A DNA stretch of 64,000 nt from Acidobacteriota bacterium. GTDB lineage: Bacteria; Acidobacteriota; Terriglobia; Terriglobales; Acidobacteriaceae. Location of the stretch: the NCBI GenBank assembly GCA_021816455.1, contig JAKAXU010000011.1, positions 1-64,000 on the forward strand, written 5' to 3'. How positions within the stretch are numbered: position 1 is the stretch's first letter; every line of letters begins with the position of its first letter. The position numbers and the translations under genes are program-made. The notes beneath the pieces are model-generated. The model was not told the origin of the DNA and made no database searches. It worked only from the letters and a program-made list of their open reading frames with translations. Positions 23,019 to 47,654 of the stretch are shown in pieces.

Positions 23019-23130
23019 TTTCTTGCGCTTGCGCGGAACCTTACGCGGTAACCCCGCGCCGATTCCTGTGCAAAACGGGAATCTCCGGAAATAGCGCAGA
23101 CTTTTGCGTTTCGTTCAGACTTGAGTCCTG

Positions 23131-23967: not shown

Positions 23968-24110
23968 GATCGATTCTAAGCAAAGAGACGCAGGGCAAGG
24001 CAGTTTGCATCCTTGCAGGAGAGAAATTCGGAGCCATGGCAGGAGGCGGCAAAAAAACCGGGAGCCTGCGGATTGCCCCAGGCTCCCGGTTCTCTGCTTC
24101 TGCATACGTG

Positions 24111-25274: not shown

Positions 25275-25517
25275 TGAACTACTCCTCCAGTCGCAATGCC
25301 GAGGCACTGGTCGGTCTCTGTCTGGTCCGGCGCTGGGCACACCGCGCCGTGCGGGCACCTGCTGCCAAACTACTACTGTTATGGTATCGGTTACGCGCGG
25401 ACAGGGCAAAACGAGGCAGCTTAACGGGGACCAGCGCCTGCTCAGAGGTCTACATCGCAGGGTGAATGGGCACACCGGGAGGAATCTGCCGCGAAGCAGA
25501 AGCGAAACCGGAGGGAA

Positions 25518-26033
25518 CTATCCTTGTGGGGGATGGTTACGGATGAACCCTGCAAAGTTGGTAGTGACTTCGCCGATCCAGGCTTGCAGCGGCAGGATGG
25601 AGGGCCACCAGCCGGAGCGGTAACCGAAATAACGGATCGACAGGAAGCCGGCCAGCATGACAAGCAGTCCAAGCAAGCCAGCGCCCAGCCACTTGAGCCT
25701 AAGCTGGCGCAACTCATGCGCGCGCATGCGCGCGCGCCCGACGTTGGCCGCAAACTCGATCCAATTCTGGTCGTCGTCCAGCATCTGGCCGCTGGCCATG
25801 TAGGCGCGTTGAAAGCGGGTTATCCAGTCGCCTTCGTCCAGACCGACGACCTTTACGTAGGCGCGAACGATACCTTTGTTGAGAATGCCGCCTGGCAGGG
25901 AGCGGAACTGGTTGGATTCAAGCGCGAGAAGGTGGCGGGAGCTGACCTTGGTTACCTCCGTGATCTGCTCAAGCGCGATCCCGCGGCTCAACCGCTCCAT
26001 GCGCAGATCGTCGCCAAAAGACCCTTTACTCAT
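25518..26033 (-). CDS. RodZ-like helix-turn-helix (HTH_25-type) protein with a C-terminal TM segment
   Basis: FGDDLRMERLSRGIALEQITEVTKVSSRHLLALESNQFRSLPGGILNKGIVRAYVKVVGLD followed by a hydrophobic segment. Confidence 0.8.
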   Translation of the reverse strand: MSKGSFGDDLRMERLSRGIALEQITEVTKVSSRHLLALESNQFRSLPGGILNKGIVRAYVKVVGLDEGDWITRFQRAYMASGQMLDDDQNWIEFAANVGRARMRAHELRQLRLKWLGAGLLGLLVMLAGFLSIRYFGYRSGWWPSILPLQAWIGEVTTNFAGFIRNHPPQG

Positions 26034-26297
26034 CGAAGAAGCTCCCATTCCTTCCCGGAAGAGTTTTCCACAATCAAGATACGTGGATGATCGGATGAAG
26101 GTCAAAAGAAAATGTCAATACGCAATAAATATTGTTCGTCATCGGTTGCAGTCCGGACAATTTTGAATCGACGGAACCAAATTGAAACCGAGTTGCGTCC
26201 GAATGTCGCAGGAATGATACTGGATGCCTGTCGCCCGGTCGACGCGTGCGCGCGGAAAGAGTCCATGATTCGCTGTCCGGACGACGAGAGGAGCAGT

Positions 26298-27686: not shown

Positions 27687-27702
27687 CGGGGAGCGGAGTG
27701 AG

Positions 27703-28152
27703 TCAGCCTGCTGTGCTCTCCGCGCGGCAGGCGTCGCACTGGCAGTTGCGGCGCAGGAAGTCCCAGGAATAGATGCCCGCGGTGTGACCGTCCTGCCAGT
27801 GGAACTGGATGGCGTAACGCCCGGTGGCCTGAACGCTGGCCGGGCGAGCAGGCGGCTCGTAGAGCGGCAGAAGCTGCGCGGGGCGCGCCTTGGGCTGGCC
27901 GGGCGAGCGACCGGATAGTTTGCGTTCCTCGACGCAGGTGGCGCAGGGGCAGGCGTCGCGCAGCCAGGCGAAGCTCCAGTGGCTGCGATGACCGTCGGCC
28001 CAGTCTATCTCCATTCCCAGACCTTCGGTCTGGAGTACGCGGACTTTGGATGGCGTGAGCGCTCCGCGGGTGAGCTTGCGGGCGCGGGCTTCGTCCTGCT
28101 CCAGTTTCTGTTGCTCTTCGCGGGTGAGGAACTGAATCCCTTCGTGGCTCAT
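27703..28152 (-). CDS. DUF971 (gamma-butyrobetaine hydroxylase-like N-terminal) domain protein
   Basis: WADGHRSHWSFAWLRDACPCATCVEERK and WQDGHTAGIYSWDFLRRNCQCDAC. Confidence 0.85.
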   Translation of the reverse strand: MSHEGIQFLTREEQQKLEQDEARARKLTRGALTPSKVRVLQTEGLGMEIDWADGHRSHWSFAWLRDACPCATCVEERKLSGRSPGQPKARPAQLLPLYEPPARPASVQATGRYAIQFHWQDGHTAGIYSWDFLRRNCQCDACRAESTAG

Positions 28153-28331
28153 GCTTCTATTGTGCCTGAAAGCCTACGGGGGATGGAACCGGTGAGAGGA
28201 GATGGAGGAAACAAGAGCGGGTACGGTTCAGCGGTGTGCAATTCAAGCAGGCACGATTCCGTCGGATGGTAGTCTGAGGCCGGGTACCGGTTGCCGAGCG
28301 TTTCACGGTGGGAGTTGAGCGAGGATCACGG

Positions 28332-29513
28332 ATGAACGAACAGAGATTGCAGCACCGGATCGCCGAGGATGGAGCATCCGAGGCAGAGAGCGCAACGGCG
28401 GAGAGGCGACTGATTCAGGTGGTGTCGGGGTTTCGTCCCGATGTGGACGGGATGGGCGATTATGCGCGGCACCTGGCGGAAGAGCTGTGGCGGCGGCACG
28501 GTATTGCGAGTGAGATGGTGGTCTTTCACAGGCCGGACAATGGCGCCGAGACCGGCGTCGGGGAAGGTTGGCGTGTACGGTATGCCGAGGCGGCAACCGG
28601 CGAGGCACTGGTGGCCGCAGTGCAGGAGCGCATGCGGGAGATGCCGCAGGCACACCTGCTGCTGCACTACGGGCCGTATGCGTACACGGGCAATGGAAGG
28701 CCGCTGCACTTTGCCGAGGCGATGGCGAAACTGGGAGCAGATGGACGGTTGGCGGTATTTTTCCATGAGATGTGGGCGCGAGGATGGCCGTGGAAACGGG
28801 CTTTCTGGACGCAGGGAAATCAGGTACGGGCGGTGCGCGCGTTGATCGGAGCCTCGCACGTGGGGTTCACTTCCTCGGAGTTGTTCCGGAGGTGGATGGA
28901 GCCGTTGAATGGCCGGCGCACGCCACTGGAGCAGGTGAGGATTTTCTCGAATATGGGCGAGGTGGAGAGGCCACTGCCGCTGCGCGAGCGCGAGCCGAGG
29001 CTGGTGGTCTTCGGGCAAAGGGAGACGCGGCTGCGGCTCTATCGGGAGTATCGGCGTGAGCTGGAACAACTGTGTCGGATACTGGGACTGGAACGTATCG
29101 TCGATGCGGGTTCGGGAACGGCGGCTATTCCGGAGCGAGTGGGTGCGATTGCGCTCGAACGGGTAGGGTTTCTGAGCGAAGCGGAGGCAAGCAGGCTGCT
29201 GGCGACGAGCGTGGCCGGAGTGGTGTGCTACGCGCCAGTGGTGTGGGAGAAGTCCGGGGTGCTTGCGACCTATCAGGCGCATGGGATGGTGCCGGTGGTG
29301 GCGGCGCGCTGGATGCAGGGATTTCGCGCCACGGCAGAGACTCCGTTTGCACTGATCGGCCAGTTGGTGAGGTGTGCGGCAATGAGCGCCGACCAGATGC
29401 AGGCGCTGGCAGATCGCGCGTATGTCTTTTATCAGCGGGAAGTGGCGCTGCGGCGCGCAGCGGAAAAAGTGCGCGGTGCGTTGTGGAGGGGAGCCGCTAC
29501 TGCCGAGCGCTGA
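28332..29513 (+). CDS. Glycosyltransferase-like protein
   Basis: VVSGFRPDVDGMGDYARHLAEELWRRHG N-terminal GT-B-like start; lies in a cluster with other glycosyltransferases. Confidence 0.65.
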   Translation: MNEQRLQHRIAEDGASEAESATAERRLIQVVSGFRPDVDGMGDYARHLAEELWRRHGIASEMVVFHRPDNGAETGVGEGWRVRYAEAATGEALVAAVQERMREMPQAHLLLHYGPYAYTGNGRPLHFAEAMAKLGADGRLAVFFHEMWARGWPWKRAFWTQGNQVRAVRALIGASHVGFTSSELFRRWMEPLNGRRTPLEQVRIFSNMGEVERPLPLREREPRLVVFGQRETRLRLYREYRRELEQLCRILGLERIVDAGSGTAAIPERVGAIALERVGFLSEAEASRLLATSVAGVVCYAPVVWEKSGVLATYQAHGMVPVVAARWMQGFRATAETPFALIGQLVRCAAMSADQMQALADRAYVFYQREVALRRAAEKVRGALWRGAATAER

Positions 29514-30573
29514 GAAGGTCGAAGCGTGGAAGCGCGCGCTGGATGACCTCCAGGTGCTGGCGGAAGATAACCGGCTCTTCGAATTGCGCCAGATGAGCGG
29601 CAGCGCGGCTCCGCAGATCGGATTGCAGGGCAGGATCGGCCAGAATGCGTTGCAGTGTGTCGGCCAGAGCCAGTGGATTTTCGGTTTCAAAGGTGAGTCC
29701 GCAGGGGCCGATCGCCTCGGGCAGCCCTCCCTGCGCGGCGACGACGGGGATGGTTCCGCACGCAATACCTTCCAGCGCCACAATGCCGAAGGCTTCCGCC
29801 GGTTGCCGACGGGAAGGCACGACGAGAATCTGGTGCTGTCGAAGCAGTTCGGCAAGCTGCGCGGGCGGTTGAGAACCGAGAAACGTGATATGGGATGTGA
29901 GTTTAAGACGCTCCGCGAGTGCCTTGAGCTTCTCCTGCTCTCCACCTGAGCCGACGATGGTGAGCGAAGGCGTGATGGTCTGTTTGCGCAGGGCATCGAG
30001 CGCGGCGAAGAGAATGTCCAGCCCCTTGGCCTGCACAAGCCTGCCGACAAAAATCAAACTCCTGGTGCGCGCCGACTGGTCTTCAACTGGGCCGAAGATG
30101 TGGCTGCGATAAGGATTGTGAATGACGAGGGATGGCACGGGGAAGCTCTGGGCCAGAAAGTGACTGCAAGAGATGCAGGTGGCGCGGCACATGGCAGCAA
30201 ATTTGAGCCATCGTTTGAGGCCGGAGCGCTCGATGGTGGAGTCAATGGGCGTATGGCTGGAGAGGATCAGCGGTTTGGGTGCAAGCAGAAGCGGCCAGAG
30301 GGAGTGGAGACTGATGTTGTTCTGGTAGACGAGGTCGCAGGAGCGAACGAGGTGAAGGAGCTGACCGCGAGATGGGCGGCGATGGACGGGCCAGGGAAAC
30401 GAGGGCGAATCGGAGTCGGCAGCAGTTTGCGTGACAACCTCGACATGGATGCCGTGACGGTGCATCTGTTCGGCGAGGAACAGGGAGGAAGTTTCAATTC
30501 CGCCTATACTGGGAGCAAAGGCCCAGGAACAGAGAAGAATGCGGGCTGGCCGAGCAAGGGGTCGGGGGGGCAT
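29497..30573 (-). CDS. GT4-family glycosyltransferase
   Basis: SIGGIETSSLFLAEQMHRHG, LIFVGRLVQAKGLDILFAAL, VVPSRRQPAEAFGIVALEGIACGTIPVVAAQGGLPE. Confidence 0.92.
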   Translation of the reverse strand: MPPRPLARPARILLCSWAFAPSIGGIETSSLFLAEQMHRHGIHVEVVTQTAADSDSPSFPWPVHRRPSRGQLLHLVRSCDLVYQNNISLHSLWPLLLAPKPLILSSHTPIDSTIERSGLKRWLKFAAMCRATCISCSHFLAQSFPVPSLVIHNPYRSHIFGPVEDQSARTRSLIFVGRLVQAKGLDILFAALDALRKQTITPSLTIVGSGGEQEKLKALAERLKLTSHITFLGSQPPAQLAELLRQHQILVVPSRRQPAEAFGIVALEGIACGTIPVVAAQGGLPEAIGPCGLTFETENPLALADTLQRILADPALQSDLRSRAAAHLAQFEEPVIFRQHLEVIQRALPRFDLLSARQ

Positions 30574-30642
30574 TCTGCTGGAAGTCTACGTGGAATGGCC
30601 CGTGGATGCAACGCAATTTCCGGAGACAGAGGAGGAGGAAAT

Positions 30643-31530
30643 GTGGCGGAGCTATCGGTTTCAGCGCTGATCACCAACTACAACACGTGGAAACTGAGCC
30701 TGCTGTGCGCGCAGAAGTGTGTGGAGATGGAGGGGGGCAATCTGAAGCAGATTCTGGTCTATGACGATTGCTCGCCAGAGCCGATGACCGTGGAGTTTCC
30801 GCCGCAGGTAACGCTGGTGCGCGCACCGGAAAATACCGGATTGTCGAAGGCGCTGAATCGTGCGTATGCGCTGGCGGAAGGCGATGTGATCGTTCAGTTC
30901 GATGCGGACGCGTATCCGACAGCTCCATTTGCTGACGAACTGCGTACGCTTTTTGCAGCGGATCCCGGGCTGGGATTGGTAGCTTTCCGAACGACAGGCA
31001 GCAGAGGGCAGACAACGGAATCGTTTATGACGGAGCCGAATCTGTGGGGATTGCTGCTGGGGCAGGCGCTGTTTGCGCGGTTGGAACGGTGGCTTGGAGA
31101 TAAGAGCGGCCGCGTGAGCGTGACGATGTGCGCGATGGGCGTGCGCAAGGCGGCATTCGATGAGATTGGCGGGTTCGATGAAAAGTTGGGCTTTCTGGAT
31201 ATCGATCATGACTTCAGCATGCGCATGAATCGGTCGCGGTGGCGGGTGGCGATTTCCGATCGGCTCAAAGCCTTCCACGAGGGCGGCGGCACAAAGACCC
31301 GAGCGCGGAAGCGATTGCTGCTTTTTTATCAGTCGCGGTGGCATCTGCTGATGAAGTTTGGGAAGATACGGTCGCGCAGGCTGGCGAAAGCACTGATTCT
31401 GCTGCGGTTGTTGGTTGAGCTGGGAGTTTTGAAGGCTGCCGGGCGTTGGCTGTATGCGGATGCGGAGACGCGATTCGACAAGGTGCAGGGGCGCAAAGAC
31501 CTGATCCACTATTGCAGTCACAACTACTGA
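30643..31530 (+). CDS. GT2-family glycosyltransferase
   Basis: SALITNYNTWKLSLLCAQKCVEM, VYDDCSPEP, ENTGLSKALNRAYALAEGDVIVQFDADAYP, FDEKLGFLDIDHDFSMRMN. GTG start 5 nt after GGAGGAGG. Confidence 0.92.
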   Translation: MAELSVSALITNYNTWKLSLLCAQKCVEMEGGNLKQILVYDDCSPEPMTVEFPPQVTLVRAPENTGLSKALNRAYALAEGDVIVQFDADAYPTAPFADELRTLFAADPGLGLVAFRTTGSRGQTTESFMTEPNLWGLLLGQALFARLERWLGDKSGRVSVTMCAMGVRKAAFDEIGGFDEKLGFLDIDHDFSMRMNRSRWRVAISDRLKAFHEGGGTKTRARKRLLLFYQSRWHLLMKFGKIRSRRLAKALILLRLLVELGVLKAAGRWLYADAETRFDKVQGRKDLIHYCSHNY

Positions 31531-31545
31531 GCGGGAAGGCGCGGC

Positions 31546-32640
31546 TCAGCGCCGGATACGGCTGGCAAGCTGATGGCCAAAGTGCATGGCCGGCTTTTCG
31601 AGCAGGTAGTAGCTCGCGATGGCGCAGGCAAAGGTCGCGAGATAGTTGAGAGGCCAGAGCTGGAGCGAGCCGAGGGTGCTGATGTTGGAGTCGCTGTGCC
31701 CCACGAAGAACAGCATTTGCCACAGGTAGAGGCTGTACGAGATGCGTCCGACAAAGCGCAGCGGCGGCAGTTCCAGAAAGCGTGCGAGGGTGGATTGCGG
31801 ATGGAGGACGGTGCCCAGAACCAGCACGGGCATGAGCGTGGCGACGGCGAGGATGTGAAGGAAGTTCTCAGGAGTCCAGGTGATGAGCGCGAAAACGGCA
31901 GCCAGTGTGAGCGGCCAGAGGTGGCCGACGCGTCGGAACCACGCGCGGACAGAGTCGCGCTGGATGAGGATGGCGATGCACGCCGGGATGAAGAGGGAGT
32001 CGAGGCGCACGTCGGAGTGAAATTGAATGACATCCCAGGCGCGGTGGTGGATTTGCCAGGCGAGTGAGGCGGCGACGAGGAAGATAAGCAGAGCCATGAC
32101 CTTGAGACGATGCTTCTGCCGCGTGCAAATGAGGATGGCCGGCAGCAGAAGATAAAAGTGCTCTTCGACGGAGAGCGACCAGAAGTGGCCGGTGAACCAT
32201 TGCCCTGCGGCAGGATGGCTTCCGAGCAGACGGGTGTAGTTGCGGAAGAAGAAGAGAGCGCCGAACCAGTCCATGCCGATATGGGGAATGATGGCAAGAG
32301 CAGAGAGCGTGGCGACAGCGAGCAGATAAAGGATGGCTGGTGGGAAGATGCGGAAGGCGCGACGGATGTAAAAGTGGCGCAGGCTGATGGAGCCGAATCG
32401 CTGTTCCTCGGCGAGCAGGCGGGAGCAGATGAGGATACCGCTGATGGCGAAGAAGACATCGACGCCCATCTGCCCATGGAGATGAAACCAATCCGTATTC
32501 AAACGCCACAGGGAATGGATGGAGTCATGAAAGATCATGACGGCAAGGATGGAGAGGGCGCGCCAACCGTCGAGAGTGGGCAGGTAAGAGGTGCTTTTGC
32601 GGGCATCCGTTTGGGGGCGTGCCACCGGGGTTTGAGGCAT
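31546..32640 (-). CDS. Acyltransferase 3 family (OafA/YrhL-like) membrane protein
   Basis: YLPTLDGWRALSILAVMIFHDS, GVDVFFAISGILICSRLL, GHFWSLSVEEHFYLLLP. Confidence 0.94.
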   Translation of the reverse strand: MPQTPVARPQTDARKSTSYLPTLDGWRALSILAVMIFHDSIHSLWRLNTDWFHLHGQMGVDVFFAISGILICSRLLAEEQRFGSISLRHFYIRRAFRIFPPAILYLLAVATLSALAIIPHIGMDWFGALFFFRNYTRLLGSHPAAGQWFTGHFWSLSVEEHFYLLLPAILICTRQKHRLKVMALLIFLVAASLAWQIHHRAWDVIQFHSDVRLDSLFIPACIAILIQRDSVRAWFRRVGHLWPLTLAAVFALITWTPENFLHILAVATLMPVLVLGTVLHPQSTLARFLELPPLRFVGRISYSLYLWQMLFFVGHSDSNISTLGSLQLWPLNYLATFACAIASYYLLEKPAMHFGHQLASRIRR

Positions 32641-32668
32641 GCATGCTCCGGTGCGGAGGATGATTTGA

Positions 32669-34081
32669 TTATGGCATAGGGGAGCGGCTGCGGAGGGTGT
32701 AAAAGAGCGCGGCCGCCAGGTTGGAGATGGTGGTAAAGAGGACGATTTTGGCTGCATAGCCGAGTGGGCTTGCGACCGGAACGACGGGAAAGATGGAGAC
32801 GATGAGGCTGAAGAGCGTAGAGACGAATCCGACCGCCGAGCTGAAGCGGATCCAGCGTGGAAGGCGGCGGCGCAGCGTGGCCGAAGCGACGATGGGAATG
32901 GCGAACATGGCCATATAGGCCAGCGCGTAGTGAGCGACCGAAGCGACGAGGATGAGTTGAAACGTCTGCTGGATGCGCAAGTCGACAGAGGCGGCTAGGA
33001 TGGCGATGGCGACAAGAATCGCGGTGAAGAGGATGGCGTTGACGGGCGTGCCGCGGCGCGGATGGAGACGGGAGAACCAGCGCGGAAGCAGATGATGCCA
33101 TCCGGCGGTGAGCGCAAGGCGGCTGGCCCCGGTGAGGACAAGACTGGCGGTGCCGACAAGTCGGAGTTGGAGGGCGGCAATGGCGGCGATGGCAAGCAGG
33201 TTCCCCCAGCCGGATTCGCCAAGCGCGAGACGAAAGGTCTGCGGGACAGGCGCGATGAGGTTGATGGGGCCGTGAGCAAAGGCCAGAACCGAACTGGTAC
33301 CGAGGATGAAAAGCATACAGATGATGGGCGAAGCGATCTGAACGGAGCGACCGATGGCGCGTGCCGGCGCACGGGTTTCCCCGGCAAGAATGGCGATATA
33401 TTCGAGGCCGGCCAGTCCACCGATCATCATGAGGCCGACGGTGGCGAAGGCGTGGCGATTGAGGATGGGCAGGACGATCGGCAGAGGTTCCCAGTGGATG
33501 GGTTGGCGACGCAGGATGGCAAGGATGGGCAACAGGATGAGTATGGCGAAGACGATTGCGATGGCACCGCCGCCGAGGTTGTGGAACCATTTGCCAAAGT
33601 CGAGGCCATAAATAGTCGCGAGGGTAAGCAGGACAAGGACACCGAGAATGATGGAGCCGCTAGCCAGTGGATTTTCGGCGAGATGGGAGCCGGAGGGTCC
33701 GAGCAGATAGCCGATCTCCGAAGGCATGGAAAAGAGGATGACCGCAGCGACGCCAAGCGAGTAGACCCAGATGTTCCAGGCGACGAGGAATCCAGGGAAG
33801 TCGCCGAAGGCGATGCGCGCCCAGGAGTAGAGGCCGCCTTCGAGTGGCATCTCGCGGTTGAGGTAGAGGACGGAAGCGGCCATGGGCAGGTAAAAGACGG
33901 CCATTGCCGTGATCCAGTAGACAGCCTGCGCGCGGCCGAGCAGAGCTGCGAAACCGACCCATCCGGAGCCGACGACGAAGAGAATCTGAGTAAGGATGAG
34001 ATCGAAAAGCGAGAGCGAACGCTGGAGTCCGTGTGTGTGAGCAGAGGGTGCGGAACTGGATGGCTGCGGCAAGCGAGGCAT
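32669..34081 (-). CDS. APC-family amino acid permease
   Basis: About 12 TM segments; GLYSWARIAFGDFPGFLVAWNIWVYSLG; LAGLEYIAILAGETRAPARAIGRSV. Confidence 0.9.
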   Translation of the reverse strand: MPRLPQPSSSAPSAHTHGLQRSLSLFDLILTQILFVVGSGWVGFAALLGRAQAVYWITAMAVFYLPMAASVLYLNREMPLEGGLYSWARIAFGDFPGFLVAWNIWVYSLGVAAVILFSMPSEIGYLLGPSGSHLAENPLASGSIILGVLVLLTLATIYGLDFGKWFHNLGGGAIAIVFAILILLPILAILRRQPIHWEPLPIVLPILNRHAFATVGLMMIGGLAGLEYIAILAGETRAPARAIGRSVQIASPIICMLFILGTSSVLAFAHGPINLIAPVPQTFRLALGESGWGNLLAIAAIAALQLRLVGTASLVLTGASRLALTAGWHHLLPRWFSRLHPRRGTPVNAILFTAILVAIAILAASVDLRIQQTFQLILVASVAHYALAYMAMFAIPIVASATLRRRLPRWIRFSSAVGFVSTLFSLIVSIFPVVPVASPLGYAAKIVLFTTISNLAAALFYTLRSRSPMP

Positions 34082-34177
34082 GGGTGAGGTGAGGCTAGCA
34101 CGCCCGGCGGTGAAGACCAAGGGAATTTGCGTCTGGCGCGGCCCGGGGATCGAAGCATCTTTGCGATACTGGAAGGC

Positions 34178-34990
34178 ATGAGCGGAGATGTGGAACGGGT
34201 GAAGCGATGGCGCGTGGCGGAAGCCGTGGCGCGCGAAGCAGGGACGTTACAGAAGCGCAGATTTCTGGCGCGGACCAGCGACGAGGTGGCGTACCAGTTC
34301 AAGGGACCACAGGATTATCTGACGGCGACCGATGGCGAGGTGGAGCGCTTGGTACGGAAGCGCCTGTTGGCTGCATTTCCGACCGACACGATGCTGGGCG
34401 AGGAGGGTGGCGGAGAAATTTCGGAGTTTACCTGGGTGGTGGACCCGATTGATGGCACATCGAACTTTGCGCGTGGCATTCCGCACTTCTGCGTTTCCAT
34501 TGCCCTGGTGGAGCGGGGCGAGGCGACTGTGGGGGTGATCTACGCGCCGATGGTGGATGAGCTGTACAGCGCGGCGACGGGCGAGGGTGCATGGCTGAAC
34601 GGGGAGCTGATGCGAGTTTCGTCGGTGACGCGGCTGGACCGGGCGCTGGTGGAGCTGGGATGGGCTGCGCGGCAGCCGAAGGCGGAGTATTTGGAGATGC
34701 TGCGGCGGGGGATGGACGCGGGGTTGGGAGTGCGCGGCGCCGGATCGGGATCACTGGCGGCGGCGCAGGTGGCAGCCGGACGCGTGGACGCATGCGTGGA
34801 GCTCCACATGTATGCGTGGGACTGGCTGGCAGGGATGGTGATGGCGCGCGAGGCCGGAGCTCGGGTGAACCGGTTTCTGACGGGCGATGCGCTGCGCAAG
34901 GGGAATTTTGTCTTTGCTGCCGCGCCGGGGATCGCCGAGGCGCTGGCCTCGGCTCTGGATGTGGCAGGGCGAATGGAGCTTGCGGAATGA
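34178..34990 (+). CDS. Inositol monophosphatase family protein
   Basis: GEEGGGEISEFTWVVDPIDGTSNFARGIPHFCVSIAL; AWDWLAGMVMAREAGA. Confidence 0.95.
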   Translation: MSGDVERVKRWRVAEAVAREAGTLQKRRFLARTSDEVAYQFKGPQDYLTATDGEVERLVRKRLLAAFPTDTMLGEEGGGEISEFTWVVDPIDGTSNFARGIPHFCVSIALVERGEATVGVIYAPMVDELYSAATGEGAWLNGELMRVSSVTRLDRALVELGWAARQPKAEYLEMLRRGMDAGLGVRGAGSGSLAAAQVAAGRVDACVELHMYAWDWLAGMVMAREAGARVNRFLTGDALRKGNFVFAAAPGIAEALASALDVAGRMELAE

Positions 34991-35057
34991 TCGCGCGGGA
35001 CTGACGGAAGCGCGTTTTTGTTATTCTGAAGAATACGAATAGCGAGGATAAACGAAG

Positions 35058-35459
35058 ATGGCAGAGCCACGAAGTCGAATCTATCATCGAGGCCGCGTGG
35101 CGGAGAGTTTGCGGGATGAGATCGGGTCGATGCTCGAAGGGGAGCTGTCGGATCCGCGAATCGGATTCTGCCACGTGACCGAGGTAGTCATGCATCCGGC
35201 ATCGAAGTCTGCGCGGGTGTTTCTGGCTGTGGATGGCGATGCTGAGGCCGAGGAGCAGACAGTCATTGCGCTGCAGGCGGCCAAGGGCTATATTCGCCAC
35301 GAGCTGAAGGAGCGGCTGGGATTGCAGCGGGTTCCGGAGCTGAGCTTTCACGTGGATCGCAAGGAAAAGTTTCAGGGAAGGATCGACGAGCTGCTGCATC
35401 GTGCGGAAAAGCGCGCCCGCAAAGGGACGCCTGGGCCAAACACGGCGGCAGCTGAGTAA
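35058..35459 (+). CDS. rbfA: 30S ribosome-binding factor A
   Basis: RVAESLRDEIGSMLEGELSDPRIGFCHVTEVVMHPASKSARVFLAV; RIDELLHRAEK. Confidence 0.94.
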   Translation: MAEPRSRIYHRGRVAESLRDEIGSMLEGELSDPRIGFCHVTEVVMHPASKSARVFLAVDGDAEAEEQTVIALQAAKGYIRHELKERLGLQRVPELSFHVDRKEKFQGRIDELLHRAEKRARKGTPGPNTAAAE

Positions 35460-35468
35460 AATGGCGGC

Positions 35469-36542
35469 GTGGGACGGCGAGAGATGGCACGATTCCAGCC
35501 AATTCGCAGAATGAAGGCGCGAGCAATGGATGTGGCGCGCACCGGGGTGCAAGAACCGGTGCCACTGCTGCTGCCGGCCGAGGCGCGGGCGATTTTGGAT
35601 TTTATCCGGGCCAATGAGCGGTTTGTGGTGTGTTCGCACTCCCGGCCGGATGGTGACGCCGTGGGATCGATGCTGGCGATGGGTATGCTGCTGGAGCAGA
35701 TGGGCAAGCGAGCTGATCTGGTGACGGCGGACCGTGTGCCGGCGGTCTACCGTGGATTGCCGGGTGCCAGGCGCATTCAGACGGCGATCGGGGTGCATGG
35801 CCTCTATGACGCGGCGATTGTGCTGGAGTGCGATGGGCTGGCGCGCACGCGGCTGATCGGGCTGGAGGCGTATCCGCAGATCAATATCGACCATCATGCA
35901 AGCGGGCAGGAGTATGCGACGCTGAACTGGATCGATCGGACGGCGTGCTCGGTGGGTGAGATGGTACACAGGCTGGCGACCGATGCCGGGTGCCGGGTGA
36001 CGCCGGAGATGGCGACCTGCCTGTACGTGACTCTGCTGACGGATACGGGCGGCTTCTGCTACGGAGGCATCGATGCGGCGACCTTTGCGCTGGCTGGAGA
36101 ACTGACGGCTGCCGGCGCCGACCCGGTGGCTGTCGCGCGGGATGTGTATTTTGCCGTGCCGCTGGCCAAGATGCAATTGCTGGGACGGGCGTTGGCGACG
36201 CTGCACTGCGAGGATGGTCTGGCGTGGCTTGCGGTGACGGACGGCGATATGACTTCGACCGGGGCGAGCGAGGAAGATTGCGAAGGAATCGTGAACTATG
36301 CGCTTTCGATCGAAGGCGTGGAGGCGGCGGTATTTCTGCGTGAACTTCCAGAGGGGCGCATCCGGATGAGCCTGCGCAGCAAAGGCCCGAAGGCGGTAGT
36401 GAACGTGGCGGCGATTGCCGAACGGCTGGGCGGAGGCGGACACGAGAACGCAGCCGGATGTACGCTGGACGGGCCGATCGCCGCGGCGGAGCGGGTGATA
36501 CTGCGGGAGATGCGCGAGGTGCTGCACCCGACGGCGCAATGA
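35469..36542 (+). CDS. DHH-family phosphoesterase (NrnA-like oligoribonuclease/pAp phosphatase)
   Basis: CSHSRPDGDAVGSMLAM, INIDHHAS, LYVTLLTDTGGFCYGG, GGGHENAAGC. Start uncertain. Confidence 0.92.
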   Translation: MGRREMARFQPIRRMKARAMDVARTGVQEPVPLLLPAEARAILDFIRANERFVVCSHSRPDGDAVGSMLAMGMLLEQMGKRADLVTADRVPAVYRGLPGARRIQTAIGVHGLYDAAIVLECDGLARTRLIGLEAYPQINIDHHASGQEYATLNWIDRTACSVGEMVHRLATDAGCRVTPEMATCLYVTLLTDTGGFCYGGIDAATFALAGELTAAGADPVAVARDVYFAVPLAKMQLLGRALATLHCEDGLAWLAVTDGDMTSTGASEEDCEGIVNYALSIEGVEAAVFLRELPEGRIRMSLRSKGPKAVVNVAAIAERLGGGGHENAAGCTLDGPIAAAERVILREMREVLHPTAQ

Positions 36543-36678
36543 GCGGGGTGCTGCCAGAAATCTGGTAGCCTTGAAGACGGGCCGGATTCTCCCTGATTGG
36601 CCGAATGAGTAATATGAGTGATGCTGAAGGCTATGCTGAAGTCATCCCAGAAGGTTTCTGCGCGGAACTGACCCAGTC

Positions 36679-38499
36679 TTGAACGAATCCACGAACAATT
36701 CGAACGTCGGCGGATCGAGGAAGCTGTCCGCGGAGATTCCGTGGCGGGAGCTTGCCAGCCTGCTGCTGTTTATGGCGTTTTTCACTCTGTACGGTGTGAC
36801 GCCCCTGCTGGGTGGGGCTGGACTGGGACTGGTGGGCGCAGATGAGCCGCGCTATGCGCAGATTGCGCATGAGATGCTGGCCAAGCTGATGCATGCGCAC
36901 TCGTTGCGCGGAGAGCTTTCGGCGTGCGTGACACCGTATCTCTATGGGCGACCGTGGCTGGAAAAGCCGGCACTGTATTACTGGCGGGCAATGTATGTCT
37001 TCCGCGAATTTGGAGTGTGGGACTGGGCGGCGCGTCTGCCTTCGGTGAGTTTTGCGCTGTGGCTGGTGGGGCTGACGTATTTGCATATGCGGAGCTTCCG
37101 GCGCGGAGGGCATCTGGATGCGGCGCTGATTACAGCGGCCTGCGTGGGGATTCTGAGCTTTTCGCGCGGTGCCTCGACGGACATGCAATTGGCAGCGCCG
37201 TTCTGCATCGGGATGCTGGGTTGGTACGCGTGGTATGAAACGCGATCGAAGTTCTGGCTGGTGGATATTTACTTTTTCACGGCGCTGGCGACGCTGGCCA
37301 AGGGACCGGTGGCGCCGTTCCTGGCGCTGTTGATTATCGGAGCGTTTGCGGCTCTTCGGCGGGAGTGGTGGATTCTGCGAAAGTCGCTGTGGTGGCCTGG
37401 GATTCTGCTGTACTTTGCGATTGTGCTGCCGTGGTTTGTAGCAGTGCAGCGGGAGAATCCGACGTTTTTTGTGGAGTTTTTCCTGCAACACAATCTGGAA
37501 CGGTTTGCGACGAACCGGTTTCAGCATGAGCAGCCCTTCTGGTACTACCTGTTGGTGGTGTTGGTTGCGACGATGCCGTGGACGGTGGTGGCTCTGCGTG
37601 CGCTGTGGGACGGGATACTGACTTCGGTGAAGGAGTGGCGGCTGCGCCACTCGACGGCCGACCAGGTAGCAAAGAGCCAGCCCGGGGATGCGTTTCCGGA
37701 GTACTTGGTTTTGTGGGCGCTGATCCCGATTGTGTTTTTTTCGCTGTCGCAGTCAAAGCTGCCGGGATATATTCTGCCAGCGATTCCTCCGATTACGATT
37801 CTGACGGGAGATTATCTATTCCGTTGCCGGCAGCGCGGCCTGGGTCGCGGCGTGCTGGGCGGGCACGCGCTGCTGGTGGGATTTGCGACGGCGGCAGTCT
37901 TGCTGGGACCGTGGTATGTGGCGCATGGGGCGCATCGGCATCCCCCGCTGGAACTCGCGGGCCTGGCGGCGCTGGCCGGGCTGACAGCGGTCGTGCTGCA
38001 ACTGCTGGCGGTGGAACGCCTGGGGTTGAAGCGGCTGCGCGTGGCGACAAGCGCGGTGATGGTTGCGCTGCTGCTGTATCTTTACGGCGTGGGGCCGTTT
38101 TTCGGGATTCCTGCCGTGGAGGCGAGCAAGGGAACGATCCGGCTGCTGGACCGGACATACTCGGCGCGACCGCTGGCGGAACGGTTGGCGGGAATGGTTC
38201 CTCCCGACGAAACGGTGGCGGTTTTTCGGGTAAGGCGGGATATGGAGTATGGCCTGGCGTTTTATCGCAACCATGAAGTGGCGAACTATGATGTGGTGGG
38301 CGTGCCGGCGGGCGAGCATGTGTTGGTGGTGCGGGTGACGGGCAAGAACGGCACGGACCTGCATTCGATGGACGCTCTGCGGGAGTATCTGGAAGGGCGC
38401 AGCTACACGAAGCTCTTTGACTGGCCGGAGCAGGGGCTGGCGGTGTACCGCGTTGGCGCGCAGACACTTGCCGAGGATGGGGATGGGTCCGGGGATTGA
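36679..38499 (+). CDS. GT39/ArnT-like membrane glycosyltransferase
   Basis: VGADEPRYAQIAHEMLA, YGRPWLEKPALYYWRAM, many TM helices, FFSLSQSKLPGYILPAIPP. TTG start. Confidence 0.9.
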   Translation: MNESTNNSNVGGSRKLSAEIPWRELASLLLFMAFFTLYGVTPLLGGAGLGLVGADEPRYAQIAHEMLAKLMHAHSLRGELSACVTPYLYGRPWLEKPALYYWRAMYVFREFGVWDWAARLPSVSFALWLVGLTYLHMRSFRRGGHLDAALITAACVGILSFSRGASTDMQLAAPFCIGMLGWYAWYETRSKFWLVDIYFFTALATLAKGPVAPFLALLIIGAFAALRREWWILRKSLWWPGILLYFAIVLPWFVAVQRENPTFFVEFFLQHNLERFATNRFQHEQPFWYYLLVVLVATMPWTVVALRALWDGILTSVKEWRLRHSTADQVAKSQPGDAFPEYLVLWALIPIVFFSLSQSKLPGYILPAIPPITILTGDYLFRCRQRGLGRGVLGGHALLVGFATAAVLLGPWYVAHGAHRHPPLELAGLAALAGLTAVVLQLLAVERLGLKRLRVATSAVMVALLLYLYGVGPFFGIPAVEASKGTIRLLDRTYSARPLAERLAGMVPPDETVAVFRVRRDMEYGLAFYRNHEVANYDVVGVPAGEHVLVVRVTGKNGTDLHSMDALREYLEGRSYTKLFDWPEQGLAVYRVGAQTLAEDGDGSGD

Positions 38500-38502
38500 G
38501 CC

Positions 38503-38531
38503 GATCCCATGCGGGCGGCGCATATGGGATC
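38503..38531. terminator. Strong hairpin GATCCCATGCG-GGCGG-CGCATATGGGATC directly after the GT39-like gene
   Basis: 11-bp stem with a 2-nt bulge; no T-tract, so a structured 3' end rather than a classic intrinsic terminator. Confidence 0.4.
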
Positions 38532-38729
38532 GCATGCGGCCGAGGCGGTGAATTTGTCCTTTTCTACAGGGGTTCTACAGGGGCAACTGCGCTATGCTCA
38601 GAGCAAATGGGAAGGATTCCGGCGCGCCAGTGCCGCAGCGCCAAGGCACAACAGCAAATTTGGAGCATGATCCGCAACGGATGCGTGGTAGCTTTCGTCG
38701 AAGTGTAGAGAAGCGGACGGAGAAAGCGC

Positions 38730-39728
38730 ATGAGGACGAGCGTGACGCCGGAGATACGAGACCTGAGGCTCTTCGATGCAGCAGCGTTGCGTCCGTTGCT
38801 GGAGGTTGAAAGCGGGCTGTGGCGTCGGCGGCTGGATTGGGAGTATCTGGGTTCGGCCAAACTGCTGCTGGAATATCTGGACGCGCGAGCGCTGCCGGGT
38901 TTTGTGGCCGTCGAGCAGGGGGAGATTCTGGGGTATGTCTTCTGCGTGTATGAAGAAAACAAGGGTGTGATCGGGAATGTCTTTGCCGCACCCCGAATGG
39001 TGGGCGAGTGGACGCAGATGGATACTTTGCGGCAAGACATAGAGCGGTTGCTGCTGGAGCAGGCGATCGCGCTGCTGACGCATTCGCCGGGTGTGGAGCG
39101 CGTGGAGACGCAACTGCTGCTGCATGAGGCGGGTGAACACGCAGAGACGCTGGATGCGGCGGGCTTTCGACGCGCACAGCGCCTCTACTTGCAGCGCAGG
39201 CTCAGGGTGGATCGGATGGACGATACGAAGACCGCCGGGATCGTTCAGGGCTGTGAGTTGCGGCCATGGCGGGATGGCGAGATGGCACGCGCGGCGCAAC
39301 TGATTGTTGCCTCGTATCGAGATCACCCAGACAGCCGAATCAATGACCAGTACCGGACGACGCAGGGAGCGCAACGATTTCTGCACAACATTGTGCGCTA
39401 TCCGGGGTGCGGGACGTTTGAGCCGGAGGCGTCGTTGGTAGCCGTGGATGCGTTGACGGGAGCCATGGCGGGGGTGGTTCTCAGCTCGCGCATCAGCTCA
39501 AGCTGCGGACACATTACACAAATATGCGTGGCCCCGGAGTATCGCCGTCGCGGGCTGGCCGACCGGATGCTGCGGGTGGCGATGAATGCGCTTGCTATGC
39601 GCGGGCTGGAGCAACTGACACTGACGGTGACCGCGAGCAATCAAGACGCGATACGGCTTTATCTGAGGGAAGGATTTCAGGAAAGGTACAGGTTTGACGC
39701 CGCAGTCTGGGCGAGGTCGGGAGCATGA
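38730..39728 (+). CDS. GNAT N-acetyltransferase, apparently two GNAT-like halves
   Basis: C-terminal half ITQICVAPEYRRRGLADRMLRVAMNALAMRGLEQLTLTVTASNQDAIRLYLREGF; N-terminal half weaker. Confidence 0.88.
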   Translation: MRTSVTPEIRDLRLFDAAALRPLLEVESGLWRRRLDWEYLGSAKLLLEYLDARALPGFVAVEQGEILGYVFCVYEENKGVIGNVFAAPRMVGEWTQMDTLRQDIERLLLEQAIALLTHSPGVERVETQLLLHEAGEHAETLDAAGFRRAQRLYLQRRLRVDRMDDTKTAGIVQGCELRPWRDGEMARAAQLIVASYRDHPDSRINDQYRTTQGAQRFLHNIVRYPGCGTFEPEASLVAVDALTGAMAGVVLSSRISSSCGHITQICVAPEYRRRGLADRMLRVAMNALAMRGLEQLTLTVTASNQDAIRLYLREGFQERYRFDAAVWARSGA

Positions 39729-39757
39729 AGAAGCCACGGAGGGTGCGAGCGGAAGGC

Positions 39758-39973
39758 TCAGTGCAGAATGAGCGCCATCAGCCAGCTTGCGACAATGACC
39801 GATCCGGAGAAGAGCAGGAAGCACCATGCGCCGTAGCGCAGCATGGCGCGGGGGGAGTGGCGCTGCGTGATGCCGAAGATGGTGGAGGCGAAGAGCGCGC
39901 AGAGCAGCACAGCGGTGAAGTGGGAAGGACGAAAGACAAAGGCGCTGATCAGAAGCGGCATGGCAGGAGACAT
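39758..39973 (-). CDS. Small predicted integral membrane protein
   Basis: 71 aa, about two hydrophobic segments, abuts the next upstream ORF. Confidence 0.6.
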   Translation of the reverse strand: MSPAMPLLISAFVFRPSHFTAVLLCALFASTIFGITQRHSPRAMLRYGAWCFLLFSGSVIVASWLMALILH

Positions 39974-40386
39974 CAGAGAAGATCCTGCTTTCTGCCGATA
40001 GAAAGATTGTGTGCATCGACGGCGGCCATGACGTTGAGCAGTCCGGCCATCACCATGAAGCGAGTGCCGTAGTCGGCAGTGGTAACCTGCACGGTGTTCG
40101 CTCCCCAGCCGAAGAGCGTGCTGAGAATGAAGCAGAGTCCGCTGCCTAGGTCGCCGAAGAGCCCGAGCAGGTCGAGGATGTCCTTGGCGTTGCTGTAAAG
40201 CTTGCCCTGCATGGCGATGCCGAGGAAGAACATGGCCACGACGGAGACAAAGACCAGCGCGGCGCGGATGGGCCTGCGCAGCAGAAGATGACCGGCTCCG
40301 GGAACGAGCCAGCCGAGAAACAGAGGCGCCCAGAAACGGAAACCTGCGGGCTGCGCGGAAACGGATTTAGCGGCGGTCGCAGACAT
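39973..40386 (-). CDS. Predicted integral membrane protein (possibly DUF6677-like)
   Basis: FWAPLFLGWLVPGAGHLLLRRPIRAALVFVSVVAMFFLG; 137 aa; multi-TM. Confidence 0.7.
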   Translation of the reverse strand: MSATAAKSVSAQPAGFRFWAPLFLGWLVPGAGHLLLRRPIRAALVFVSVVAMFFLGIAMQGKLYSNAKDILDLLGLFGDLGSGLCFILSTLFGWGANTVQVTTADYGTRFMVMAGLLNVMAAVDAHNLSIGRKQDLL

Positions 40387-40530
40387 CCCTTCGATTCTAA
40401 CTTACAGACCGTGCGAACGTGGGGAAGCAGGTACGGGCAAGGCAAGAAATTTGGCTATGCGCCGGAGCGAGACATCTGAGCGCCAGCAAAGGGGTGCGGA
40501 GTGCGGGCAGGATGCAGATCATGGATTTCC

Positions 40531-42183
40531 TCAATGAATTGAGCGAGTGGAGGAGAGGCCGCCCGACGGGACAGGGAGCGCCGGAAACAAAGGCGGATCG
40601 CGTCGCGCATGGGTGGTTTGTTCGAAGTCGTAGGCATAGCCGATCAATGTCGATTCGCTGAAGGCCGGGCCGAGGAATGTCATGCCCGCGGGCAGGCTTT
40701 CGTGCGTGAATCCCATGGGAACGGTGATGGCTGGGAAGCCGGTCTGTGGGCTGAGTACCTGGCTGTTGTCTCCGGCCGGTGAGGTCATATCGCCGACTTT
40801 GCGCGGGGGATCGCTCCAGGTGGGATAGACAATTGCGTCCAAATGATCTGCGGCCATGGCTGCGAGCAGCGCGTTACGAAAGCGAATCTTAGCCGGATCA
40901 TGGTAAACATCCTGGCAGGGCGAACGGCGATCATCTTTGACTGGCGGGGCAATGGAAGCCTTGATCTCGCCGTCGATGTAGGGCAGATATAGGCCGGAGG
41001 CGACGATCTGACGCAGGGAGTGGTAAGGTGCGTTGGGGTGCTGATCCAGGTAGTGGTCGAGATCGGCTTCGAAGTCGCCGCACCAGAGGTTGGAAACGAG
41101 GGCTTTGTAATCGGGGACGGTAAAGGGATCGATGACGGTTGCGCCCTCGGCACGTAGCGTGGTGATGGCGTGTTCCATGGAGTCTTTCACTGCAGGGTCG
41201 GTGCGCGGAGTCTCGAAGTACTGACGGAAGACGCCGATCCGCGCGCCGCGCAGCGCATGGCGCTTGAGCGAGCGGGTGTAATCGATGCCCCAGGGGTGGG
41301 GATAGGCTCCGAGAGCAGCGGCGAGATCGGGATCGGAAGGATCCGGCCCGGCAAGGACAGTGAGCAGTCGCGCAGCATCGGCGACGGTGCGCGCCATAGG
41401 ACCGCCGACATCGTTGTGCGCGAAGAGCGGAATGATGCCAGAGCGACTGGTGAGACCGATGGTGGGACGGATGCCGACGAGATCGTTGTGGCTGGAGGGT
41501 CCGCGGATGGAGTTGCCTGTGTCGGTGCCAAGTCCGGATTCGCCAAGGCTGGCGGCGACGGCTGCTGCGGTGCCACCGCTGGATCCGGCGGGAACACGGC
41601 TGAGATCATAGGGATTGCGGGTGATGCCGGCGATGGAACTGGCCGTGAGATAGGGACTGAAAGCCCATTCAGCCATGTTGGTCTTGGCCAGAACGATGGC
41701 TCCAGCGGCGCGAAGACGGGCGACCATGGTGGCGTCCGCGGTGGGGAAGAAGCCTTTCATCGCGAGCGAGCCGCCGGTGGTTTGCAGCCCGGCGGTGTCG
41801 TAGTTGTCTTTGATGAGGACGGCGATGCCACCCAGCGGAGGCAGAGTGTGCGTCCGACGGACGGCGCGGTCGCACGCATCTGCTTCCGCGAGAGCGCGCG
41901 GATTGACCGTGACGATGGAGTTGAGCGGGAATCGCTGGTCGGCGGCGAGCGTGTGGCCGGGAAGGTCAGGTACCGTCTGATCGTAGGCGCGGATGCGGGC
42001 AAGGTAAGCTTCGACGACGGCGCGGCAGGTGGTGCGGCCGGAGAGAATGGCAGCCTGCGTTTCAGCGATGGTAGCTCCGACGACGTTGAAGGCGGACGGC
42101 TTCTGGGCGTGTGCTGGAAGCACCGACAGAGCGGCAGACAGGAGGACTCCTGGAGTGCGAAGAGCAGAGAATAACCCGGGCAT
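40531..42183 (-). CDS. Amidase signature-family protein, secreted
   Basis: Signal peptide; [68 protein letters not shown]. Confidence 0.95.
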
Positions 42184-42245
42184 GCACGATTGGTATCACG
42201 CGTCTGCATCAAAGGCGAGAAAAAAATACGAGGCGGAAGACGGGG

Positions 42246-43724
<1,479 letters not shown>

Positions 43725-43952
43725 GCGTATCCGAAGCGCGTGCGGTTGAGAAAACTGGGCGCTGGCAAAGCCATTTCGATTGTAGCAGCGCAGGTCGACC
43801 GGTTTTGGAGAGGAGAAAGGGAGTACAGGCCGATATGTCCCCAAACGAGGGCTGGTGCGTCTACCATGAAGAAAGAGCGAATTTGCTGAGCATCGCTGTG
43901 GGACGAATGTGGGAGTCAAGACCGCATGACTGCGGAAGGACAGGTCGCAGGG

Positions 43953-44996
43953 ATGCGGCGGAAAATGTGGATTGTGACGGCCCTGGCGTTGGCGACAACG
44001 ATGGGAACGGTCGCGTTGGCTGCGGAGACTGCAAATGAGCAGGTGCCCGTGGCGTCCGCCTCCGCGGTGACTGCGCAGGCGGCGCAGGCCGGATCAATCA
44101 CCGGCGTGGTGATGGGCAGCGACGATTCGGTATACCAGGGTGCGGTGGTCATGCTGGAGCCGTTGAAGCGCAGCGCGACGACCAATGAAATGGGCAGCTT
44201 CAAATTCGACGCAGTTCCTGCCGGTCATTACACGCTGACGATCACCGCTCCTGGATTCAAGACAGCGCACCAGGCGGTGACGCTGAGCGTAGGCGAGCCG
44301 CTGGCGCTGCCCGGCATCCTGCTGGAAATTGCCGAGGAAACGACGCAGGTGCTGGTGACGCCGGATGAGCGGGAGATTGCAACGGAAGAGGTCCATGCGG
44401 AAGAGCATCAGCGGGTATTTGGGGTGATTCCGAATTTTTATGTGGTCTATGACAGGAATGCTCCTCCGCTGACGACGCGAGAAAAGTACGATTTGGCGTG
44501 GAAGTCCATTATTGATCCGTTCGACTTTATCGGCACGGGAGCGGTTGCGGGGGTCCAGCAGGCGACCAATACCTTCAGCGGATATGGGCAGGGTGCTGTG
44601 GGCTATGCGGATCGTTTTGGTGCGGACCTGGGGGACAACGTGATAGGGACGTTCCTGGGTGGCGCGGTCTTTCCCTCGATGTTTCACCAGGATCCGCGAT
44701 ATCTGGTGCTAGGCTCGGGGACGATCCGCCACCGGATTCTGTATGCACTGGCCAATGCGGTGATCTGCCGCGGAGATAACGGGAAGTGGCAGTTCAACTA
44801 CTCCGGCGTTCTGGGCAGTCTGGCTGCGGCGGGCATCTCGAACTTCTACTACCCGGCGGTCAATCGCGACGGAGCTTCGCTCACCTTCGAGAATTTTGGA
44901 ATTGGCCTGGGAGCAAGCGCGGTCACCAACATCTTCCAGGAGTTTTTAGTGCGCAAACTCACCCCGCACGCACATCCGCAGACAGATACGCCGTAG
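43953..44996 (+). CDS. Carboxypeptidase-regulatory-like domain protein, exported
   Basis: Signal-like N-terminus, GSITGVVMGSDDSVYQGAVVMLEPLKRSATTNEMGSFKFDAVPAGHYTLTITAPGFK, then an uncharacterised C-terminal region. Confidence 0.75.
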   Translation: MRRKMWIVTALALATTMGTVALAAETANEQVPVASASAVTAQAAQAGSITGVVMGSDDSVYQGAVVMLEPLKRSATTNEMGSFKFDAVPAGHYTLTITAPGFKTAHQAVTLSVGEPLALPGILLEIAEETTQVLVTPDEREIATEEVHAEEHQRVFGVIPNFYVVYDRNAPPLTTREKYDLAWKSIIDPFDFIGTGAVAGVQQATNTFSGYGQGAVGYADRFGADLGDNVIGTFLGGAVFPSMFHQDPRYLVLGSGTIRHRILYALANAVICRGDNGKWQFNYSGVLGSLAAAGISNFYYPAVNRDGASLTFENFGIGLGASAVTNIFQEFLVRKLTPHAHPQTDTP

Positions 44997-45099
44997 AGGT
45001 ATTGGGCTTCGATCAGCACCGATAACTCAAGGTCGGCCCGGAGTCCTCTGCGATCCGCGGGCCAGCCGTAGAGTACTGCAACTCATTCTGTGGAAGAAC

Positions 45100-45171
45100 G
45101 ACAAGCTGCAGAGGCGGTTCATGAAGCCGCATCGGGTTGGATCGGAGTCGGAGCGGGTGGAGGATGACTGA
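45100..45171 (+). pseudogene. Decayed 3'-terminal fragment of an RND efflux pump gene
   Basis: DKLQRRFMKPHRVGSESERVEDD* versus DKLQWRFMKLHRIGAELEQVAGD* at the end of ORF 6416..9559; about 60/72 nt identical by eye, no gaps, same stop position. Confidence 0.75.
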
Positions 45172-45207
45172 GTTTTTCCGGGTCAGCAGCGACGATTCCA
45201 CAGATTC

Positions 45208-46365
45208 TTAAGTAGATTTCGCCTGCCGGAATCGGATCCACGCCTGCTCGATGTAGCTGTCAGTCATGCCAGCGATGTAATCGGCGACGGCGCGTGGAGC
45301 GCCCTCGTGGCTGGCGCGCGCGACGTGATCGGCGGGAAGGCGGGAAGGGTCGTCAACCCAGTATGCAAAGAGGGTGGAGATGATTTCGACGCCGCGGCTG
45401 TGCTCTGTTTCCAGCTCCGGGGACTCGTACAGCTCGCGATACAGAAAGGTGCGCAGGGCTTGGCGATCGGATTCTCCGGAGTTGCTGAAGGCGGCAAGGC
45501 GCGTGCGTGCGGCGCGGACGTCAGCGAGCGAGCGAATTCGGTTGGCAGCAACACGACGGGATAGCTCGAGCATGAGGTCGGTGACGAGACGATTCAGAAT
45601 AGTCTTGAGCGCGTCGTTGCGCAGCAGCCGCTCGGCGGCAGAGGGATGTTTGCGCTCCGCCTCGCAGAAGGCGCGATCGAGGCAGGGAAGCTCGCGACGC
45701 GCGTGATTGAGCTGAAGGATGCCCGCTTCAAGACCATCTTCGAGGTCGGCGGTGAGATAGGCGATCTCATCGGCGAGATCGATGAGTTGCGCTTCGATCG
45801 GCGGAAGCTGGTCGAGGAGATAGTCGGCAAGTTCAGGATGGTCGGCGAGGCTGTAATCGCGAGAGTGTTTGATGATACCTTCACGGACCGCGAGGGTGAG
45901 ATTGAGGCCGTGAAAACCGGCATGTCGCTGCTCAAAAACGGTGACGATACGAAGGGCGTGGAGGTTATGGTCGAAGCGCAGCCCGTGCGGAGTGAGTGCG
46001 GCGTCGAGGGCGCGTTCTCCGGCGTGGCCGAAGGGAGGGTGACCGATGTCGTGTACGAGGGCAAGAGCTTCGGCGAGGTGGGCGTTGAGGCCGAGCGCCG
46101 TGGCCATGGTGCGGGCGATCTGCGTAACCTCCAGGGTGTGAGTGAGGCGGCTGCGCGAGTGGTCGCTTTCTGTTTGGCTGCGGGTGAAGACTTGAGTTTT
46201 GCCGGCCAGGCGGCGAAAGGCGCGCGCGTGCAGAATCCTGCCGCAGTCGCGGACAAAGGGAGTGCGGTAGGGATGTGGTGCTTCTGTCGTTTCACGCCGG
46301 GCCAGCGGCTCGTTGTCCGAGTCATGGACGGCAATTTCGGGATCGAGTTGGATGTCGAGTTGCAT
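45208..46365 (-). CDS. Deoxyguanosinetriphosphate triphosphohydrolase-like HD protein
   Basis: PYRTPFVRDCGRILHARAFRRLAGKTQVF, RSRLTHTLEVTQIARTMA, LVHDIGHPPFGHAGERAL. Confidence 0.94.
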   Translation of the reverse strand: MQLDIQLDPEIAVHDSDNEPLARRETTEAPHPYRTPFVRDCGRILHARAFRRLAGKTQVFTRSQTESDHSRSRLTHTLEVTQIARTMATALGLNAHLAEALALVHDIGHPPFGHAGERALDAALTPHGLRFDHNLHALRIVTVFEQRHAGFHGLNLTLAVREGIIKHSRDYSLADHPELADYLLDQLPPIEAQLIDLADEIAYLTADLEDGLEAGILQLNHARRELPCLDRAFCEAERKHPSAAERLLRNDALKTILNRLVTDLMLELSRRVAANRIRSLADVRAARTRLAAFSNSGESDRQALRTFLYRELYESPELETEHSRGVEIISTLFAYWVDDPSRLPADHVARASHEGAPRAVADYIAGMTDSYIEQAWIRFRQAKST

Positions 46366-46667
46366 GGATGGAAGGGAGCGGCGGACAACGTGTAGACGGT
46401 GGAACCTGCAGAGGCGCGTGAGTCGGGCGCGTCGGCTGCTGAGTTGAGGGTAAATGGTTTTCGCCCGGGGATGAAGAGAGACGATAAGCCGAGTGGGGAT
46501 GGTGTGCATGGAAGCTGGCGTGAGCATTGGACACGCTCTCCAGTTAGGAGTATTCTTCATCGTTCTTGGACCGCTCTCCGGCGCGTGCTGCGAGTGGATG
46601 TAGACGATCTCCGCCGACCGGTTTGATCGGGACAGAAGCAGCACCATCTCTATGAAGGAGAATCCGT

Positions 46668-47654
46668 ATGCCATCGATACGAATCATCACCGCAGTGGCA
46701 ATTACCTCGGCGCTTCTCGTTCTTTCCGGTTGCGGGCGCCACTCGACTTCAGAGGTTTATTATCTTGTATCCGCAAATCTCTCTCTGCCGTACTGGAAGA
46801 CCGCGGCTGCGGGGTTCAATCAGGCAGCGGTTCACTATAATGTGACGGCTCGCGTCGTGGGTCCGGAGAGCTACGATCCTCAGGCGGAGCTTCAGGCGCT
46901 GCAGCAGGCGGTGGCCGCCAAGCCTGCGGGAATCCTGATCTCGGTGGCCGATGAGGCGCTGCTGAAGCCGGAAATCGACGAGGCGATCAACGGCGATATC
47001 CCTGTGATTACGATGGACTCGGATGCGCCGAGCAGTCATCGGCTGTTCTTTATCGGCACAAATAATCTGGCCGCCGGACAACTGGGTGCTGAGCGCGTGG
47101 TGGAGCGGCTTGGCGGACGGGGAAACGTGGTCTTTTTCACGATTACCGGTCAGCCGAATTTGGATGACCGCCTGAAGGGCTACAAGGATGTCTTCGAGCA
47201 GCACCCGGAGATCAAGATACTCGACGTGGTCAACATCAAAGGCGACTCGCGAAATGCCTTCGACAACGCGATGCAGTATCTAAGCCAGACGGGGCCGACG
47301 AAGGTGTCAGCGTTCATCTGCCTGGAGGCGTCGTCAGGCAAAGTCGTGGCTGATGCGGTACGACGCCAGCATGCCACTGACCGGGTGGTCATCGCCATGG
47401 ATGTGCAGCCGGATACACTGAGCGAGATCAAGGACGGGATCATCGATGCGACGATTGCGCAGAAACCCTACACGATGGCCTACGTGGGATTGCGTGAGCT
47501 GGATATGATCTATCACGACAAACCAGCGGAGTTTGCACGGGATTACAGCGTGGACGCCTTTGCGCAATATCCGGTATTCATCGATACAGGAGCTGCGCTG
47601 GTGGATAAGGTGAACGCAGACATGTATGCGAGGGACGCACAGGAGCACCAGTAG
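46668..47654 (+). CDS. Sugar-type ABC solute-binding lipoprotein (RbsB-like)
   Basis: Lipobox-like LVLSGCG, YYLVSANLSLPYWKTAAAGFNQAAVHYNV, ISVADEALLKPEIDEAINGDIPVITMDSDAP. Confidence 0.9.
   Translation: MPSIRIITAVAITSALLVLSGCGRHSTSEVYYLVSANLSLPYWKTAAAGFNQAAVHYNVTARVVGPESYDPQAELQALQQAVAAKPAGILISVADEALLKPEIDEAINGDIPVITMDSDAPSSHRLFFIGTNNLAAGQLGAERVVERLGGRGNVVFFTITGQPNLDDRLKGYKDVFEQHPEIKILDVVNIKGDSRNAFDNAMQYLSQTGPTKVSAFICLEASSGKVVADAVRRQHATDRVVIAMDVQPDTLSEIKDGIIDATIAQKPYTMAYVGLRELDMIYHDKPAEFARDYSVDAFAQYPVFIDTGAALVDKVNADMYARDAQEHQ

Follow-up and report, generated by a model that had tools for sequence, protein, structure and literature searches.

The window, that is, the whole stretch of 64,000 nucleotides analysed here, contains an operon with two tandem pump genes, the second of which (6416..9559, plus strand) is intact and encodes an RND pump of the AcrB/AcrD/AcrF type (Pfam ACR_tran, 1030 bits). 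Tens of kilobases downstream, on the opposite strand, lies a gene for an HD-domain dGTPase-like phosphohydrolase (45208..46674, minus strand; Pfam HD and HD_assoc). In this 488-aa ORF conservation begins only at about residue 109, the conserved part ending near 46335, and the sequence suggests that the true start is probably internal, near 46335-46395. Just beyond the stop codon of the dGTPase-like gene, a short orphan fragment of a pump gene is found. An earlier note on this DNA had reported that positions 45100-45171 match the end of the intact pump gene at about 60 of 72 positions; the alignment reproduces this match, which is ungapped, includes the stop codon and contains 12 differences (60/72). 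A BLASTN check of the kind proposed there, run against the same genome with 45000-45250 as the query, agrees with it and yielded a single non-self match well above noise (C15:9488-9560, 84%, E 1.6e-15), the next-best match having an E of 0.115. The mirrored antisense ORFs cited in the note do exist but provide no independent confirmation, since they lie on the other strand of the very nucleotides compared.

The similarity between the two copies runs for about 33 nt beyond the stop codon with one 1-nt gap, so that local alignment pairs 9488-9592 with 45100-45203. The score of the stop-anchored extension was reached by 0 of 200 shuffles, and that of the free local alignment by 8 of 1000. The duplicated stretch of about 105 nt thus comprises the 3'-terminal 72 nt of the pump gene and about 33 nt of spacer. 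Copy 1 (9488..9592, plus strand) is functional and continuous with the pump, and copy 2 (45100..45203, plus strand), found by both BLASTN and alignment, is decayed and continuous with the dGTPase-like gene, which places one copy at each new junction. The left edge of copy 2 is sharp, at GACAAG (45100), and on the right the copy extends to about 5 nt from where the dGTPase-like gene stops. The two copies are direct repeats that flank about 35.5 kb of DNA.

Copy 1 encodes DKLQWRFMKLHRIGAELEQVAGD followed by the stop codon, much like the C-terminus of the pump in relatives. Among the 12 differences between the copies, 3 are synonymous and 9 nonsynonymous, the neutral expectation being 9.1 nonsynonymous of 12, in contrast with the 11 synonymous and 1 nonsynonymous differences that separate copy 1 from the ortholog in the relative G014 (Fisher p 0.003). 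Copy 1 shares its base with a relative at nine sites where copy 2 is unique, and the reverse holds at one site; the changes in copy 2 include W to R, L to P and I to V. The orphan tail is nearest to the pump of its own genome (60/72, versus 51-53/72 to the orthologs of relatives). Judging from these substitutions, copy 2 is a functionless relic that drifts neutrally.

Former neighbourhoods of the pump and of the intervening DNA

Orthologs of the pump with a pump-wide match are 88-94% identical at the amino acid level in six relatives from the genus. In seven genomes of the same genus (G003, G005, G007, G008, G012, G013 and G014) the gene directly after the pump ortholog is that of the dGTPase-like protein, in convergent orientation; G005 is fragmentary, with its pump end and dGTPase gene nonetheless on shared contigs. 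The two genes are apart in the more distant genus members G006, G009 and G011. In a tree of the pump and dGTPase proteins, the window genome nests within the group that carries the adjacency (inner-node supports 95 and 97), G012 falls outside these inner nodes and has the adjacency as well, and the long branch of G005 is due to its partial pump. Because the window genome is nested among adjacency-bearing relatives, the adjacency represents the ancestral state, from which the window lineage has departed; and since the pump of the relatives directly precedes the same dGTPase-like gene, 45100-45203 represents the 3' end of the pump itself together with the ancestral spacer. What the window has lost is the adjacency and not the pump, which is now separated from its old neighbour by 35.5 kb of core chromosome. 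The idea of the earlier note that a gene tail had been left by duplication or recombination therefore holds in general terms, whereas the idea behind the check proposed there, that a third pump once stood here, is not supported: the relatives carry only the ortholog of 6416-9559 beside the dGTPase-like gene, and none of them has an intact pump beside the DNA that now precedes the tail (block D below).

The gap between the pump and the dGTPase-like gene (9593-45099, about 35.5 kb) is filled with ordinary chromosome, including tsaD, the gene for the CCA-adding enzyme, nrdJ, metK, cysS and others. BLASTN maps this stretch to relatives as four blocks located at other, ordinary chromosomal places. 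Block A (9960..19208) encodes an M20 peptidase, TsaD, the CCA-adding enzyme, an HI0933-like protein (an oxidoreductase), an FGGY kinase and a glycerol-3-phosphate dehydrogenase-like protein; block B (19328..28170) a class II ribonucleotide reductase, carbonic anhydrase, S-adenosylmethionine synthetase and an FG-GAP protein; block C (28410..40407) glycosyltransferases, an acyltransferase, a permease, a DHH phosphoesterase and a GNAT protein; and block D (40570..44996) an amidase, cysteinyl-tRNA synthetase and the carboxypeptidase-regulatory-like gene (43926-44996). The GC content of the segment is like that of its flanks, and no foreign or accessory gene content was found in it, the blocks being present in relatives. 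Pfam scans of its main ORFs revealed no integrase, recombinase or transposase. No tRNA lies within the window, and a tRNA as an integration target was rejected for this reason.

In G003, G005, G008 and G013, block D is directly followed by block A, with a gap of no more than about 200 nt, the end of the carboxypeptidase-regulatory-like gene meeting the start of A; what are now the outer ends of the 35.5-kb stretch thus adjoin each other in these relatives. Block B has different, conserved surroundings in relatives, and its ancestral flanks are found in the window's genome on other contigs (C26/C83 and C61), which indicates that this genome has been rearranged; block B itself matches its own genome essentially once. 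The A-B and B-C junctions are also new in the window. Separately, the D-A junction is broken in G007 too, where a transposase-like ORF, recognized by eye, lies just upstream of A (L193:816-1439; L194 near 16215). The D-A junction may be a recurrent breakpoint.

Sequences at the new junctions

The junction between the pump and block A carries a degenerate copy of a genus-specific MITE (9638..9787, 82% to a copy in G008:C232). The family comprises about 30 copies of about 150-220 bp in ten genomes of the genus, many of them at or near contig ends (L221-L247), with the terminal inverted repeats AGGGCCTGTTAACA...TGTGAACAGGCCCT; three copies are present in the window's own genome. The position of the MITE at this junction suggests the involvement of an IS, which may since have been lost. 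The A-B junction (19258-19335) carries another dispersed repeat, about 65-80 bp long, which was found once in the own genome, about 20 times in each of G008 and G012, and also at loci in G002.

The A-side break falls just upstream of the first gene of block A, that for the M20 peptidase. In 5 of 5 relatives compared (L184, L189, L193, L199 and L205), a CTGCTATAGT box is located about 9 nt before the ATG of this gene; it is missing in the window, near 9834, after the rearrangement. The box is perhaps the -10 element of a leaderless transcript.

At the other end, 103 nt of filler (44997..45099) separate the stop of block D from copy 2. No good match to this filler was detected in 100 related genomes; the 31 nt of 45064-45094 weakly resemble (87%) transposase-like sequence of G021. 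Comparison with the PF13340 loci of relatives gave no support to a transposase origin of the filler.

Origin of the duplication and comparison with known systems

We consider it very probable that the orphan fragment is a breakpoint duplication of about 105 nt, the scar of the relocation of a chromosome segment. Starting from the ancestral order of pump 3' end, short spacer and convergent dGTPase-like gene, the chromosome would have been broken between the pump and the dGTPase-like gene and between blocks D and A, and the ends would have been rejoined as pump-A and D-dGTPase, so that about 35.5 kb of core chromosome came to separate the pump from the dGTPase-like gene, with block B brought in between A and C. 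About 105 nt would be present on both sides if, ahead of non-homologous joining, the break had been staggered or resected and then filled in, or an end had been copied; the copy attached to the pump would have kept its function, and that on the dGTPase side, being functionless, would have drifted. The present A-B-C-D order, in which the A-B and B-C junctions are new as well, needs several rearrangements, so that the duplication cannot be assigned to any single one of them. No intermediate between the old and the new order turned up among the relatives compared. The remaining doubt concerns the assembly, the genome being a draft of 101 contigs (86.5% complete and probably metagenome-derived), and the exact path of recombination. 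A very unlikely variant of the relocation is that 35 kb of core chromosome came out as a circle, with A closed to B-C, and went back in via the old D-A junction at the 3' end of a gene by an integrase-free, site-preferring process; were it true, housekeeping DNA would have moved like a genomic island.

Site-specific entry of an integrative element of 35 kb at the 3' end of the pump gene, with the repeats as attL and attR and the gene end restored, would account for direct repeats that include the gene end and its stop, for an intact gene on one side and a displaced tail on the other, and for segment ends that adjoin in relatives, as they would in a circular form. However, Pfam scans of the segment's main ORFs detected neither an integrase nor a recombinase, its content is core chromosome that relatives share at ordinary places, and the repeat extends into the spacer between the pump and the dGTPase-like gene, all of which makes such an element highly improbable. 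A third pump, or a tandem pump duplication, between block D and the dGTPase-like gene, later deleted down to its tail, fits the nature of the fragment (a pump 3' end with its stop) and the presence of two tandem pump genes in the operon; yet no relative has a pump beside block D, where A follows instead, the tail is closest to the pump of its own genome, and it sits, with a shared spacer, at the ancestral neighbour of that pump. Synteny leads us to reject this origin, to which we would give very little weight.

A chimera of two strains, joined at about 45.1 kb in assembly or binning, might be suspected in a draft genome whose subclade otherwise universally has the pump-dGTPase adjacency. The two copies, however, differ at 12 of 72 sites, so the join cannot be due to exact k-mers shared at the repeat, and copy 2 has decayed, with W to R and L to P among its changes, in a way unlike any live pump tail in relatives. 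Furthermore, the pump-A junction with its MITE and the A-B and B-C junctions are also new, and the old flanks of block B are found elsewhere in the same genome; a chimeric join is thus very unlikely.

The relocation of a chromosome segment with duplication at the breakpoint is a phenomenon of a familiar, known kind, and what the present locus contributes is a further example, from an acidobacterial genome and beside a MITE, of a short breakpoint duplication in direct orientation, rather than a new system. It illustrates that a relic of 72 nt can reveal and orient a chromosomal rearrangement: from its own genome alone, the relic points to the former neighbourhood of the pump and the dGTPase-like gene, which the relatives confirm while identifying the second breakpoint.

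Genomic islands can integrate at the 3' ends of genes, where they are flanked by attL and attR. The window resembles such islands in that a direct repeat of a gene 3' end flanks tens of kilobases, and differs in that no recombinase was found in the segment, the genes are core genes and the repeat reaches into the ancestral spacer. In DDAI, the two copies are in inverted orientation around an inverted segment. The copies in the window are direct and surround 35.5 kb of relocated DNA, and for this reason the label DDAI is withheld; for the same reason, a single simple inversion would not produce the order now seen. As far as DDAI is described by Furuta et al. 2011 as cited in PMC8963470, which itself reports a Thermus case, the likeness lies in the duplication of the breakpoint stretch at both new junctions, with one intact and one partial gene copy. 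The origins of inversions are treated in PMC6861252, and the short duplications at Drosophila inversion breakpoints, which arise from filled-in staggered ends, are similar to the one described here, although those cases are eukaryotic with inverted copies, whereas the copies in the window are direct and would owe their origin to a staggered or copied break.
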